A stretch of DNA of 64,000 bases from Thermoplasmatales archaeon SW_10_69_26 (GTDB lineage Archaea; Thermoplasmatota; SW-10-69-26), in assembly GCA_003009755.1 (NCBI GenBank), contig PXUB01000038.1:1-64000 (forward strand). The letters are read 5' to 3'. Positions within the stretch are counted from its first letter, which is position 1, and each line of letters starts with the position of its first letter. The notes below the pieces were generated by a model. It made no database searches, had not been told where the DNA came from, and worked only from the letters and a program-made list of their open reading frames with translations. Below are positions 17,115 through 49,740 of the stretch, piece by piece. Made by a program: the position numbers and the translations under genes.

Positions 17115-17480
17115 CGTGGTGGCTGTCGGTGTGTTCGGCCATCCGAGACGGCTCGGCGCGGTTGGTCCAGCCGTCTCGGAGTTCGTACGTCTCCTCCCTC
17201 CGGTCGGAGACGTACTCCCTGAACCCGCCGCGCGTATCTACCGGCGGGCCGAGACGAGGCTTGGACGTTGTCTGCTGCCTCGTCTCGGGGTTCGTACGTC
17301 GGCTCCCGGTGGTCGGAGACGTACTTCTTGAAGGTCACCGCGTGGTGGCTGTCGGTGTGTTCCGTGGTCCGAGACGGCTCGGCGCGGTTGGTCCAGCCGT
17401 CTCGGAGTTCGTACGTCGGCTCCCGGTGGTCGCCGACGTACTCCCTGAACCCGCCGCGCGTATCTACCGGCGGGTTCAGG
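17115..17480. repeat. Hairpin mosaic with 227-bp direct repeat
   Basis: The block starting GTGGTGGCTGTCGGTGTGTTC is at 17115 and, in part, again at 17342. Within it are strong hairpins: CCGAGACGGCT/AGCCGTCTCGG (17142-17152 with 17169-17179, and again 17369-17379 with 17395-17405), three copies of a TTCGTACGTC...GACGTACT stem, and CCTGAACCCGCCG at 17444-17456 pairing with 17468-17480. The last stem overlaps the stop codon of the downstream lipoprotein gene (minus strand, stop at 17476-17478), so on that strand the mosaic begins exactly at the gene's 3' end. There is no reading frame with good composition in it. Confidence 0.85.
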
Positions 17481-17937
17481 CATACCCGAAGTGCGCCTCG
17501 AGGCGGTAGGTGTCCGAGGTGGCCAGCCACGCCACGACGACCAGCTCGTAGTCGCCGGGCTCGAGCGCCGCGTCCAACGTCTCGCGCTTGTCCAGCGGGC
17601 CCGTGCTGGCCGAGGCGACCGGCTCGCCCTCGGGACCGAAGACGTGCAGATCCAGGTCGTTCGTCGCGTTCTCCCAATCCAGCTGCGCCTGCACGCGCGC
17701 ATCCGTGGCGACGGTGAACGGGTAGCTGAAGCACGAGGAGGCCTCCGCCTCGCAACGCTGATCGCGGTCCCCGCCAGCCGGGCTCGCTGCGGCCTCGACC
17801 CGGCGCTCGTCGTGCACGGAGTCGGGCAGCGAGGCCTCCGGGTCGCTGGCCGCGTCCACGGACTCCTCCCCGCCACCCACGCAGCCCGCGATCGGGGCCA
17901 CCAGCAACACCGCCACGATCCAAGCCCGCTCACGCAT
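17476..17937 (-). CDS. Small lipoprotein with C-terminal PPC-like beta domain
   Basis: A 153-residue exported lipoprotein: MRERAWIVAVLLVAPIAGCV gives the signal and lipid-bearing cysteine, followed by an acidic linker. The C-terminal 90 residues (FTVATDARVQAQLDWENATN, DLDLHVFGPEGEPVASAS, LEPGDYELVVVAW) match the layout of bacterial/archaeal pre-peptidase C-terminal beta-sandwich domains, which bind surfaces or aid secretion. Two cysteines flank CEAEASSC. ATG 17937 is about 29 bases after minus-strand GATTTAAGG (17962-17970), a good TATA box. Role unknown; it is divergent from the ABC transporter cluster. Confidence 0.7.
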   Translation of the reverse strand: MRERAWIVAVLLVAPIAGCVGGGEESVDAASDPEASLPDSVHDERRVEAAASPAGGDRDQRCEAEASSCFSYPFTVATDARVQAQLDWENATNDLDLHVFGPEGEPVASASTGPLDKRETLDAALEPGDYELVVVAWLATSDTYRLEAHFGYA

Positions 17938-18058
17938 CAGGTCACCCTCCAACCCCCTCGCCCTTAAATCGTCCGACAGGGCCGGGCTCGACAGCTCACC
18001 GCTCTTGCCACCGCAGCCTTCACCAAGCAAGCCGGGCTCGGGTCGACGGAGCACGAGC

Positions 18059-33255: not shown

Positions 33256-34146
33256 GTGCCAGCGATGCCGGACCCGCCCGTCCCCCTCGACTTCATCGTG
33301 TTCGCGTCGCAGAAATCGGCATCGACGTGGTTCTGCCGCTGCCTCGACGAACACCCCGAGATCGCGATCGGGTACCCCTACGAGAAGCGGTTCCTGCGCG
33401 AACGGGAGGGGTGGGTCGAACGCGAGGAGAACCCGCAGTTCCTCGACGACTGGGAGGCCTACCGCGACCAGTTCCCGGACAAGGAGGACCACCAGCTGCG
33501 CGGCGACGGCGACGTCGAGCTGTACTACAACGAGTCCGGCCCCGACGTCGTCGAGAAGTTCTACCCCGACGTCAAGCTGATCGCGATCCTGCGCGACCCC
33601 GTGGCCCGGATCCGGTCCGAGTACGCCTACCGGGTGCGCGACCCCAAGGTCGAGGAAGGCACCCTCGAGGAGTACATCGACGAGAGCCTCACCATCGACC
33701 GATCCAGCTACGCCAAGCAGCTGGACCCCTGGTTCGACCGGTTCGGCGAGGACCAGATCCTCGGGCTCCCCTGGACCGAGCTCGGCGAGGAGGGCGAGGA
33801 CCTGCTCGAGGAGGCCTTCGCGTTCCTGGACGTCGATCCCAGCGTCGAACCGCCCTCGCTCACGGAGCGCGTCAACCCCCACCGGGAGAAACAGCCCTGG
33901 TTCCAGGCCTTGGAGTCGGTGGCCCGCGGCCTCCGCCGCCTCGGGCTGGGACCCTTGATGGATCTGGTGAACCGCGTCGGGGTCGGCCCAGCCGTGCGCG
34001 AGGTCGGCGACCCGCCGGCCGACAAGCCCGAGATGCCGCCCGAGATCGAGGCCGAGCTGCGCCGCGAGCTGGCCGACGACATCGACCAGCTCGAGACGAT
34101 GATCGGCAAGGACCTCAGCGCCTGGAAACCCGAGCCCGAGGCCTGA
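33256..34146 (+). CDS. Sulfotransferase 4
   Basis: A 296-residue protein: DFIVFASQKSASTWFCRCLD is the PAPS loop (QKSASTW), VKLIAILRDPVARIRSEYAY the 3'-phosphate site, and GEDQILGLPWTELGEEGEDL with FLDVDPSVEPPSL complete the fold. It is most like sulfotransferase 1. ATG 33265 is an alternative start. A TATA-like CCTAAACC lies at 33232-33239, about 20 bases before the GTG. Long C-terminal helical tail (PPEIEAELRRELADDIDQLE) as in NDST-like enzymes. Confidence 0.87.
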   Translation: MPAMPDPPVPLDFIVFASQKSASTWFCRCLDEHPEIAIGYPYEKRFLREREGWVEREENPQFLDDWEAYRDQFPDKEDHQLRGDGDVELYYNESGPDVVEKFYPDVKLIAILRDPVARIRSEYAYRVRDPKVEEGTLEEYIDESLTIDRSSYAKQLDPWFDRFGEDQILGLPWTELGEEGEDLLEEAFAFLDVDPSVEPPSLTERVNPHREKQPWFQALESVARGLRRLGLGPLMDLVNRVGVGPAVREVGDPPADKPEMPPEIEAELRRELADDIDQLETMIGKDLSAWKPEPEA

Positions 34147-34155
34147 GCCGCAGGC

Positions 34156-35337
34156 CTACTCCTCGACGAGATCGAGGAACACGTCCTCGTAGCGCTCGGC
34201 GCTTGTGTCCCACGTGTACCCGGATTCCACCGTCTCCCGCAGCCGCTTGCGGTCGGGGTCCAGCTCGAGCCCCTCGCGGACGGCTTCCACGATGTCGTCG
34301 TCCACGACCGTGAACCCGAGCAGTTCCTCGGGTAGCCAGGGCCGACGGATCGCGGCCGGTGTCCCCTCCAACATCGCCTCCAACAGCACCATGCCGAAGG
34401 CCTCGGCCAACGAGGGCAGGCAGAACAGGTCGGCGGCCGCGTACAGCTGGTTGCGCTTGCGATCGGAAACCCACCCGTGCACGGTCACGCCCTCGCCCAG
34501 CGACCGCTCGTCGACGAGCGCCCGGAACCGGTCCAGGTCGGGCCCTTGCCCGGCGACGTGCACCTGGCAGTCCACCTGCTCGGCCACGTCGAGCAACGAC
34601 CCGATGCGCTTGCTTCGATCCATGCGGCCCAGGTAGAGGACGACGCGTTCCTCGGCCCCGATGCCGAGGCGCTCGCGGGCTTGGGCCTGCTCGACGGGCG
34701 GGAACTCCTCGGGGTCGACGCCGTTGGGGACGATCCTCAACCGCGGGTCGTCGTCGGGCACCGACGCCAGCATCGAGACGACCGTGTCACTGACTGGCAA
34801 GATCGCGTCCAGCTCGGCCAGCTGGCGGTTCTCCTTGCGGGTCCGACGCTGGATGTCCAACCACTGCAGCAACCGTCGGGGGTGGTAGCGGCCCTTCTCC
34901 TCGATGAGCTTCTCCCGCGAACCCCCCATGTAGTCGTGGTGGTAGGCGGTCCCGTGCACGGTCGCGGCGACCGGCGGGGCCTCCGGGTCGGCCAGGAACC
35001 CGGCCGCGTAGAAGCTCTGCACGTGGACGACGTCCGCGTCTAAGCCGTGCTCGCGCGCATGCTCGTGGGCGGCGGTATCGAAGAACCGCCACCAGTGGTA
35101 CGCCGGCAAGCCTCGGGCCCACCAGGGGACGTAGGCCATCTCGCGCACCTCGACCCCCTCGCGAGTGTAGACCTCGGCCTCGTGATCCATGGCGGTCGTG
35201 AGGATCGTGACCTCGTGGCCCCGCTCGTGCAGAGCCGTGGCTGTCTGCCAGGTCACCTCCTCCATCCCGCCGCGCACGTGCCAGGGGAGGGTGGGGGCGA
35301 CCGTCAGGATCGACAAGCTCCCCGGCGTGCGAGACAC
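34156..35337 (-). CDS. Glycosyltransferase family 4 (GT-B)
   Basis: A retaining nucleotide-sugar glycosyltransferase of 393 residues. The N-terminal domain has APTLPWHVRGGMEEVTWQTA (glycine-rich acceptor loop) and DADVVHVQSFYAAGFLA; the C-terminal domain has RLRIVPNGVDPEEFPPV, VVLYLGRMDRSKRIGSLLDV, VHGWVSDRKRNQLYAAADLF and the E-x7-E motif in EAFGMVLLEAMLEGTPA. GTG 35337 lies 25 bases from the centre of a shared divergent TATA box. Probably extends a lipid-linked or protein-linked glycan. Confidence 0.92.
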   Translation of the reverse strand: MSRTPGSLSILTVAPTLPWHVRGGMEEVTWQTATALHERGHEVTILTTAMDHEAEVYTREGVEVREMAYVPWWARGLPAYHWWRFFDTAAHEHAREHGLDADVVHVQSFYAAGFLADPEAPPVAATVHGTAYHHDYMGGSREKLIEEKGRYHPRRLLQWLDIQRRTRKENRQLAELDAILPVSDTVVSMLASVPDDDPRLRIVPNGVDPEEFPPVEQAQARERLGIGAEERVVLYLGRMDRSKRIGSLLDVAEQVDCQVHVAGQGPDLDRFRALVDERSLGEGVTVHGWVSDRKRNQLYAAADLFCLPSLAEAFGMVLLEAMLEGTPAAIRRPWLPEELLGFTVVDDDIVEAVREGLELDPDRKRLRETVESGYTWDTSAERYEDVFLDLVEE

Positions 35338-41574: not shown

Positions 41575-41647
41575 GGGCCCATAGGGTAACTTGGTATCCT
41601 TGCGCCTTTGGGTGGCGTTGATCCCCGTTCAAATCGGGGTGGGCCCA
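41575..41647 (+). tRNA. tRNA-Pro (anticodon TGG)
   Basis: A 73-base cloverleaf: acceptor GGGCCCA/TGGGCCC with discriminator A; D-stem GGGT/ATCC; anticodon stem GCGCC/GGCGT with loop TTTGGGT, anticodon TGG at the centre; T-stem CCCCG/CGGGG with loop TTCAAAT. CCA is not encoded. No intron. Its place after rpoN is the classical euryarchaeal location for tRNA-Pro. Confidence 0.93.
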
Positions 41648-42014
41648 CTTCTCGACGGCTGATGTCACAGCAGGACAGCCGTCGAGAAGCTCGACGGACC
41701 CGAGGCGTCGGCGAGGGTCCGTCTGAGCCTCGTGACCGCCAGCGAGCCCCCGAGCGCCCGCGGTCTCGAGGATGGTGGATGCAGGCTGACGTCACAGCAG
41801 AGCAGCCGTCGAGAAGCTCGACGGACCCGAGGCGCCAGCGAGGGTCCGTCTGAGGGGAGGGAAGCTCTGCTTCCCGAGCGAGGCCGCATCCATGCGGCCG
41901 GACCTCGAGACCGCAAGTTCGCACGGATCGACGATCCGTGCTCTCGCGAGGGTTCGCCGAGGGCAGGAACCCTCGCGACGAGCCCCGAGCGCCCGCGGTC
42001 TCGGGGATGGTGGG
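41648..42014. repeat. Hairpin mosaic with direct repeats downstream of tRNA-Pro
   Basis: Starts at the very base after the tRNA: CTTCTCGACGGCT (41648-41660) pairs with 41677-41689, followed by GACGGACCC (41693-41701) pairing with 41715-41723. A nearly identical 70-base block lies at 41658-41727 and 41785-41854, and a second unit (GAGCGCCCGCGGTCTC core) at 41744-41778 and 41981-42014. More stems occur between (for example CACGGATCGACGATCCGTG). From 42015 to 42270 no gene or further clear repeat is seen. Confidence 0.85.
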
Positions 42015-42311: not shown

Positions 42312-43031
42312 ATGGAAGGGTTCGACCGTATCTGCACCGGTGTCGCCGGTCTCGACTCCCAACTGGGAGGAGGGGTACCGCGAGGTACGTCGATCCTCCT
42401 CATCGCCGAATCCACCAACGCCCTCTACAAGTTCCTCGACGAGCTGGCCGCGTTCGGCGTCGAGCAGAAGGAGGAGGTCTTCTGGCTGGAGCTGGACCGC
42501 CCCTGGGACCTCGTCCGCGACAGCCTCGAGACCACGCTCGACGGCCGCCAGGGCAAGCTCACCGTGCTCAACGCCTTCCAACCCCACCTCGGTCAGGCGT
42601 CCACGAACGGCGACGCGATCGGAATGGAGACGATCGACCCCAGCGACATCGAGGACGTGACCACCCACCGGTTGTCGAAGGTCGAGAAGGGCAACTACCG
42701 CATGGTGTTGACCTCGCTCAGCAGCATGCTGCAGACCGAGCCCGAGGACGAGGTGCTGGACTACGTGCGCCAGGTCGTCGCCCTCGGCCAGGACATGGGT
42801 GGCCTGCAGATCTTCACGATGGTCGAGGACGCCCACTCCGCCCAGACGCTGGCCATGTTCAAGCACATGTGCACCGCCGTGTTCGAGCTGGGCATGGAAC
42901 GCAAGGGCTTCGGCCTGTACTCCTACCTCAAGATCGAGAAACTCCTGGGCGTCCCCGACGCCGCCAACCTCATGCTCTTCGACGAGACCGACGAGGGCCT
43001 GCGCCTGGAGAACACCAAACGCGTGTTCTGA
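42312..43031 (+). CDS. KaiC/RadA-like protein with degenerate ATP site
   Basis: A 239-residue member of the RecA/KaiC superfamily typical of archaea (GvpD/KaiC-like, HTR-like). It opens FDRICTGVAGLDSQLGGGVP as in KaiC proteins, but the Walker A place reads ILLIAESTNALYKFLDELAA: the GxxxxGK(S/T) core is missing. The Walker B strand region reads YRMVLTSLSSMLQ. The C-terminal part (ELGMERKGFGLYSYLKIEKL) is conserved-looking. It probably no longer hydrolyses ATP and may act as a regulator or structural partner. Function unknown. Confidence 0.78.
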   Translation: MEGFDRICTGVAGLDSQLGGGVPRGTSILLIAESTNALYKFLDELAAFGVEQKEEVFWLELDRPWDLVRDSLETTLDGRQGKLTVLNAFQPHLGQASTNGDAIGMETIDPSDIEDVTTHRLSKVEKGNYRMVLTSLSSMLQTEPEDEVLDYVRQVVALGQDMGGLQIFTMVEDAHSAQTLAMFKHMCTAVFELGMERKGFGLYSYLKIEKLLGVPDAANLMLFDETDEGLRLENTKRVF

Positions 43032-48420: not shown

Positions 48421-49284
48421 ATGGCAGGCATCGCGAACACGGCGAAGACCGGCGGCTTGTTCCTCGGCATGGTGGCGTTGTTCGCCATCGTCGGGTTCCT
48501 GGTCGGCGGCTTCTTCGGCTCGGACCCGTACTCAGCGATGCTTCTGTTCCTCGTCGTCGCGGCCGTGCTCAACGGCGTCTCCCTGTTCTGGGGGGACAAG
48601 ATGATCCTCAAGGCCTACAGCGCCGAGCAGGTCTCCGAGGCCGACGAACCCGAGCTGCACCGCATCGTGGCGAACATCTCCGCCAACGCCGGCCTCCCGA
48701 AACCGGACATCTACGTGATCGACTCCCAGACGCCGAACGCGTTCGCGACCGGCCGCAACCCCGAGGAGGGCAAGGTCGCGTTCACGACCGGCCTCATGCG
48801 GCTCCTCGACCGGGACGAACTCGAGGGCGTGGCCGCCCACGAGATGGCCCACATCGAGAACCGCGACATGCTCGTCATGACGGTCGCCGCCACGCTGGCG
48901 GCCGCGATCGGGTTCGCCGTCCGCATGGCGATGTGGGGCAGCATCTTCGGCGGCCGCGACACGCGCCAGGCCCTTCCCCTGCTGATCCTGCTCGCCGTCA
49001 CCGCCCCCATCGCGGCCATGGTCGTCAAGTCCGCGATCAGCCGCGCCCGCGAGTTCAAGGCCGACGCCGGCGCCGCCGACATGACCGGCAACCCGCGCGC
49101 GCTCGCCAGCGCCCTCCGCAAGCTCGAGTCCGGCAACGACGCCAAACCGATGGAGGGCGGCAACCCGGCCCACGCCTCCCTGTTCATCGCCAACCCGTTC
49201 CGCGGCGGCGTGCTGACCAAGCTGTTCAGCACCCACCCGCCGATGGACGAGCGGGTTCAGCGACTCAACGACATGGCGTACTAG
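48421..49284 (+). CDS. htpX: HtpX-family zinc metalloprotease
   Basis: A 287-residue membrane protease of the M48 family that degrades misfolded membrane proteins. Two N-terminal spans, DIYVIDSQTPNAFATGRNPE, the zinc motif EGVAAHEMAHIENRDMLVMT (HEMAH) and SRAREFKADAGAADMTGNPR with the third zinc-ligand Glu are seen, and STHPPMDERVQRL closes the family pattern. ATG 48421 is preferred because AAGGAG precedes it. Its last codons (49256-49272) are the left arm of a 17-bp perfect hairpin. Confidence 0.93.
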   Translation: MAGIANTAKTGGLFLGMVALFAIVGFLVGGFFGSDPYSAMLLFLVVAAVLNGVSLFWGDKMILKAYSAEQVSEADEPELHRIVANISANAGLPKPDIYVIDSQTPNAFATGRNPEEGKVAFTTGLMRLLDRDELEGVAAHEMAHIENRDMLVMTVAATLAAAIGFAVRMAMWGSIFGGRDTRQALPLLILLAVTAPIAAMVVKSAISRAREFKADAGAADMTGNPRALASALRKLESGNDAKPMEGGNPAHASLFIANPFRGGVLTKLFSTHPPMDERVQRLNDMAY

Positions 49285-49740
49285 GAGAAGTCGTTGAGTC
49301 GCTGAAGAGGACGAACGCGGGGTCGCCGTACGCGTTCGTCCGAATCGCGAGCATCGCTAGCGCGGAGGCTACCGTGCGCGCTCGATGCTCGCGAGAGCGG
49401 CAGGTTCGACGACATGACGTACTAAGAGAAGTCGTTGAGTCGCTGAAGAGGACGAACGCGGGGTCGCCGTACGCGTTCGTCCGGATCGCGAGCATCGCTA
49501 GCCCGGCGTATACCGCTCGGGCTCGATGCTCGCGAGAGCCCGAGCGACGCCATCGCACGCTCGGGCGAATCCAGAGACCGACGCGTCGGCCCCGGCTGTC
49601 GGTCTCTGGTTCCAGCGTTCGGGTCCACGAGCAGGTCGTGCGCGCTCGATGCTCGCGAGAGCCCGAGCGACGCCATCGCACGCTCGGGCGAATCCAGGGA
49701 CCGACGCGTCGGCCGGGACTGTCGGTCTCTGATCGCGTGC
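49256..49740. repeat. Hairpin mosaic with two direct-repeat families, starting inside htpX
   Basis: Left arm TTCAGCGACTCAACGAC (49256-49272) is the end of htpX and pairs perfectly with 49290-49306. Next stems: GGACGAACGCG (49309-49319) with 49331-49341, CGAGCATCG with CGATGCTCG, CGAGCG...CGCTCG and AGAGACCGAC...GTCGGTCTCT. A first unit of about 110 bases recurs with a 141-base period (GTCGTTGAGT at 49290 and 49431); a second unit recurs with a 123-base period (GCTCGATGCT at 49521 and 49644). No gene is seen from 49285 to 49907. Confidence 0.88.

Follow-up and report, generated by a model that had tools for sequence, protein, structure and literature searches.

Hairpin arrays behind htpX and other genes of an archaeal genome: a dispersed two-hairpin element opening with inverted copies of host gene ends

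In Thermoplasmatales archaeon SW_10_69_26, the htpX gene runs directly into an array of hairpins, and the question raised by this locus is whether the array grew out of the gene itself or is one instance of something more widespread. The window analysed here is a stretch of 64,000 nucleotides (69% GC) from a genome of 2.8 Mb in 49 contigs, 95% complete, and the coordinates of its features are collected in Table 1. The initial annotation had described a perfect 17-bp stem with its left arm in the final htpX codons and its right arm just downstream, which proved exact: the arms are 100% complementary and enclose a 17-nt loop holding the TAG stop. When the 60 nt downstream were shuffled 5000 times, stems of at least 12 bp arose in 0/5000 shuffles and the longest reached 11 bp, so this hairpin (H0) lies far beyond chance. 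It belongs to a direct repeat (49265-49398 / 49406-49539; 134 nt, 92% identity, spacing 141), the 141-bp unit of which comprises gene end, stem and two hairpins, H1 and H2. A second tandem pair lies beyond the first (49518-49608 / 49641-49731, 95%), and the hairpin pair at 49538-49609 is arranged like H1-gaat-H2. Regarding the copy at 49431, held to repeat the right arm plus the htpX end, both parts are indeed copied but in the opposite order: the duplicated htpX end (CGACATGACGTACTAAGAG, its stop changed to TAA) occupies 49410-49428, and the duplicated right arm comes after it, at 49431-49447. This direct copy differs from the gene end by one synonymous and one nonsynonymous change. The nearest named HtpX relative (76%), from the Thermoplasmata archaeon MAG of isolate CSSed11_322R1, has no array at its htpX end.

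Table 1. Features of the window and gene-end stems at other protein genes of the same genome
Feature	Position or locus	Strand	Description
htpX (M48 peptidase), host gene	48421-49284	+	ORF; PF01435, 6.6e-38; last codons are the left arm
H0, gene-end hairpin	49256-49306	+	left arm X 49256-49272; stop 49282-49284 in loop; right arm X' 49290-49306
H1, hairpin	49309-49341	+	GGACGAACGCG / CGCGTTCGTCC; GAG before, GAA(T) after; model R1 match 49307-49397, 93.6 bits
H2, hairpin	49345-49394	+	TCGCGAGCATCG-CT-AGC...CGATGCTCGCGA; genome-dispersed
D, downstream htpX-end copy	49406-49447	+	stop TAA 49423-49425; copied right arm 49431-49447
Second H1	49450-49482	+	covariance-model match 49448-49538, 93 bits
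Second H2	49486-49535	+	repeat analysis and covariance model
Further hairpin pair	49538-49609	+	GCCCGAGCG/CGCTCGGGC (49538-49566) - gaat - CCAGAGACCGAC/GTCGGTCTCTGG (49571-49609)
Diverged tandem copy of the further pair, with H2 right-arm fragment	49637-49731	+	95%
Second array of the window, same build	17142-17488	-	CCTGAACCCGCCG / CGGCGGGTTCAGG stem over TGA of gene 17476-18054(-)
Third array of the window	41648-41978	+	directly behind tRNA-Pro (41575-41648)
GMP synthase C-terminal gene	L171		gene-end stem 19 bp
Class II tRNA synthetase	L173		gene-end stem 18 bp
Cys/Met enzyme	L154		gene-end stem 16 bp
Ferredoxin-like gene	L176		gene-end stem 15 bp
Rhodanese	L181		gene-end stem 15 bp
Cdc6	L177		gene-end stem 14 bp
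Spt5	L174		gene-end stem 14 bp
FBPase	L167		gene-end stem 14 bp
Ribosomal S7	L167		gene-end stem 11 bp

BLAST places the H1-H2 stretch at over a dozen additional sites of its own genome. An alignment of fifteen copies (A1) supports a two-helix structure, with 97.8% of cells paired, 46 double-sided changes and 0/500 shuffles doing as well. The covariance model finds 76 matches at E<=1 in the genome, a few of which are the same palindromes read antisense, and about 50 at E<1e-3; among 37 strong copies, 97.2% of cells are paired and 158 double-sided changes are counted. H1 and H2 are common to dozens of loci in constant order and orientation, joined by the recurrent linkers GAG and GAAT; copy numbers are minimum values, as runs of N interrupt some arrays (L168, L179, L180, L218). 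The family is known from this one MAG: under stricter filters, 0/292 other Thermoplasmatota genomes passed 1e-3, and one weak match was seen in a relative (G006). Rfam models gave no match at gathering score in the window.

On gene calls from a home-made heuristic using a codon-position GC rule, most arrays sit 3' of a gene and on that gene's strand, and the apparent exceptions mostly turned out to lie behind tRNA genes. At about 16 unrelated protein genes, identified by Pfam and including a class II tRNA synthetase, GMP synthase, ribosomal S7, COX3, Spt5, Cdc6 and FBPase among others, the array opens with an inverted copy of the host gene's own 3' end. A direct copy of that end often occurs further on. 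The opening stems are perfect over 10-19 bp: the left arm lies within the final codons or spans the stop, and GAG and H1 mostly follow the right arm. Stems of at least 10 bp occur at 14/24 gene ends with the element vs. 3/130 without (p about 4e-11), and these three also resemble array loci. In 461 kb sampled independently of the element, the full pattern marks 3/329 protein gene ends (twice in the window, once at L213), with a few other stems of 10-11 bp outside it; together with small samples from five relatives, these 329 ends rule out that such stems are a general property of gene ends. The notion that the array had grown by inverted and direct copying of the htpX end is thus borne out in part, since both types of copy occur in the array and follow a genome-wide rule, but the array did not simply arise out of htpX: a search for its units beside unrelated genes places H1 and H2 at dozens of them. 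The htpX array is a dispersed element, the first stem of which is made anew from whichever gene precedes it.

Transfer RNA genes are hosts as well. A gene-end stem was found at 18/33 tRNA genes, part of this set having been picked via model hits; among those fetched only as tRNAs, roughly half carry a stem or a copied end. At several tRNA genes, the inverted copy X' corresponds to the T-arm or the acceptor end: Gly (L157 and L182), Glu (L161), Arg (L160), Val (L281) and Ile (L286). The direct copies have a near-fixed boundary, beginning at T-loop positions -16 to -20 (TTC/GAATCC) at most of the listed loci of this genome. Often, the distance from the tRNA to the copy of its 3' end is about 110 nt; an H1-like right arm often stands directly before the copy. 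In sequence, the H1-GAATC junction resembles a split T-arm (GGTTCG/AATCC), a likeness and not proof of origin.

The direct copies behind protein genes retain the C-terminal peptide and the stop, and their differences bear a coding signature. The copies of FPRDRDRLRP*, NKPPGTVEWE*, VYAIVYLQWI* and IGVPVETGE* carry 6, 3, 4 and 3 synonymous changes, respectively. Summed over 15 copies, with codon pairs curated by hand and a bias toward copies still recognisable, 31 changed codons are synonymous and 5 nonsynonymous, where random change would give a synonymous share of 22% (p about 5e-16); by codon position, the differences number 8, 8 and 29. Copies were searched at the nucleotide level, far and low-scoring matches (13-16) being taken as chance. 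Because of the synonymous bias, untranslated drift does not fit these copies, and random decay was rejected as the sole process behind them; htpX and L154 (0 synonymous, 2 nonsynonymous changes) do fit decay, and their copies look like plain tandem duplication. As judged from their codons, the direct copies would have been working gene ends until recently or would derive from a diverged allele. Besides, the left edges of inverted (X) and direct (D) copies agree within about -2 to +18 nt, which suggests a single event behind both.

Simpler versions of the plan occur in two other families of the class Thermoplasmata, represented by G002 and G006: at tRNA-Met and tRNA-Arg of the former and tRNA-Asp of the latter, behind the gene end stand its inverted copy, a single hairpin of unrelated sequence and a direct copy, the copies at G006 tRNA-Asp and G002 tRNA-Arg measuring about 14 nt. 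No such pattern was found at the tRNAs examined in G001 (5), G003 (15) and G004 (7). A ferredoxin-like gene carries a gene-end stem and a hairpin both in the genome under study (L176) and in G003 (L234). From these tRNA and ferredoxin-like loci, the gene-end plan is probably older than the H1-H2 family.

The reading that we favour, with a probability of roughly 0.55, is that non-autonomous, site-selective mobile elements enter conserved gene 3' ends and restore the gene by a copy. Such an element would measure about 110-140 bp, with fixed orientation, and would enter between the tRNA T-loop and the tRNA end or in the last codons of a protein gene, giving the order gene end (a copy, the host gene being intact) - X' - GAG - H1 - GAAT - H2 - displaced gene end. 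Staggered nicks around the gene end would leave it single-stranded; filling in the overhang would produce the direct copy, and extension from its folded-back form would produce the inverted one, with the two-hairpin cassette joined between them. Arrays would grow by unequal recombination, also with diverged alleles, leaving synonymously different gene ends downstream. We infer the mobility, the staggered-cut route and an enzyme, with a tyrosine recombinase as the leading candidate.

Two tyrosine recombinases score above cut-off in this genome, and one adjoins a tRNA-Gly array. At L182 2312-3563(-) (contig C2 near 33474-34700), beside that array, the gene is split over two overlapping frames; it is perhaps frameshifted, or perhaps the enzyme of the elements. 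This bears on the foremost alternative, namely that the arrays are decayed tyrosine-recombinase integrative elements, in which the direct repeats at tRNA genes and conserved gene ends would be attL and attR. For archaeal integrases, tRNA genes are the most common sites; the 3' part of the tRNA is duplicated and the gene restored (PMC8371274). Ends of conserved protein genes serve as sites too. The present arrays likewise lie at tRNA genes and at conserved 3' ends, the gene 3' end is duplicated directly and the gene restored, and the direct copies span the T-loop to the tRNA end. We nonetheless consider this unlikely, as dozens of different targets in one genome share a common core of 100 bp in cargo-free tandem units of about 110-140 bp, with an inverted copy that ordinary att sites do not need; the units hold no genes, and the integrases lie elsewhere in the genome. 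Viruses were considered as carriers, but viral contigs scanned twice by exact pattern gave 0 matches; a retroelement (group II intron or retron) was discarded, RVT_1 being absent from the genome while control searches were positive.

Less probable still is that these are RNA-level 3' structures, selected in transcripts for termination or for 3'-end protection or processing, with right arms evolved to match. The arrays are sense-oriented behind genes, the stems covary, and REPs near stop codons can affect translation in E. coli (PMC12306157). However, perfect arms of 14-19 bp match unrelated codons at many genes, the pattern is found in only about 1% of protein genes, the direct copies are left unexplained, and at a tRNA locus X' would base-pair with the 3' half of the tRNA itself. 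Besides, G-U pairs make up 17 of about 864 in H1-H2 (2.0%) vs. 68/806 (8.4%) in the genome's own tRNA folds, a difference in favour of DNA-level copying or selection. A guide-RNA reading, in which antisense H2-H1-X would serve as scaffold and guide, was also set aside: only the geometry suggests it, and the host's own gene would be a perfect target.

REP/BIME systems consist of small dispersed palindromes in mosaic arrays with a preference for gene 3' ends (PMC3733652), and the elements described here are likewise short, dispersed and palindromic and lie between genes, at 3' ends. Mobilisation by a RAYT (Y1) transposase is nevertheless very improbable. The Y1 domain (PF01797) was found in 0/8 genomes, that is the 95% complete host and seven relatives, with a control search finding it elsewhere. 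In contrast to REPs, there are two distinct hairpins in fixed order, and each host gene end is copied in inverted orientation; neither a GTAG nor a CGTC tag was found next to the palindromes, the recurrent linkers being GAG and GAAT, and target copying by REPs is not described in the literature examined. Least probable of all is an origin without any mobile element, each gene end having undergone its own local replication slippage and template switching. This would suit the htpX and L154 copies and the X-loop-X' form, a product of fold-back synthesis, but as sole explanation it is contradicted by H1-H2, whose order and orientation are shared by dozens of loci. Template switching may nevertheless be the step producing X'.

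Double-hairpin mobile elements without genes are cited for Allomyces fungal mitochondria in PMC5910586. The present elements are similarly two-hairpin and gene-free; they differ in the copying of the target gene end, which is not described there, and relative to it the bacterial or archaeal setting is new. Integrons are known in archaea (PMC9668308), and attC arrays share tandem hairpins with an unpaired bulge. On their description they stand apart, as no ORF-sized cassettes separate the hairpins here and the first stem derives from the host gene. Casposons target tRNA 3' ends and duplicate the target, which the 14-nt copies in G006 and G002 recall, whereas the elements here hold neither genes nor cas1. 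No description of the gene-end-copying architecture was found in the open-access literature searched. Somewhat short of even odds, the elements may form a new minimal class in which the target end is copied inverted and direct as part of the insertion chemistry, allowing harmless entry into essential and tRNA genes. If so, genes as essential as those for a tRNA synthetase, GMP synthase, ribosomal S7 and many tRNAs can take up gene-free DNA within their ends and stay intact, and an enzyme duplicating its target in both directions is to be expected. Any genome can readily be screened for the signature, in which a stem reaching from the final codons to a point shortly beyond the stop precedes GAG and a hairpin pair common to the loci.

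In the second array of the window, the first stem is followed by GTACGTCGGC and CCGAGACGGCT hairpins, repeated; its host at 17476-18054(-) is PPC-domain-like, the hairpins are not H2, and the gene-end copy is repeated. First stems of the CTTCTCGACGGC type recur behind tRNAs for Val (L213), Met (L218), Pro (L156) and Val (L285). An ARAGORN tRNA-Arg of 97 nt at 42879-42975(-) of the window does not pass the filter on T-loop and length, and the call is probably spurious. At L220 13673 and L224 2129, ATTTTCTTT...AAAGAAAAT stems lie directly behind genes, A/T-rich vs. the 69% GC genome, and may be ordinary terminators. At L234 3842(-) and L176 2309(-), a hairpin stands at about the same codons of the ferredoxin-like gene in two different families. 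At L165 1900-2400(-), a gene end (EEVSA*) repeats about every 90 bp downstream, several times, stem included.
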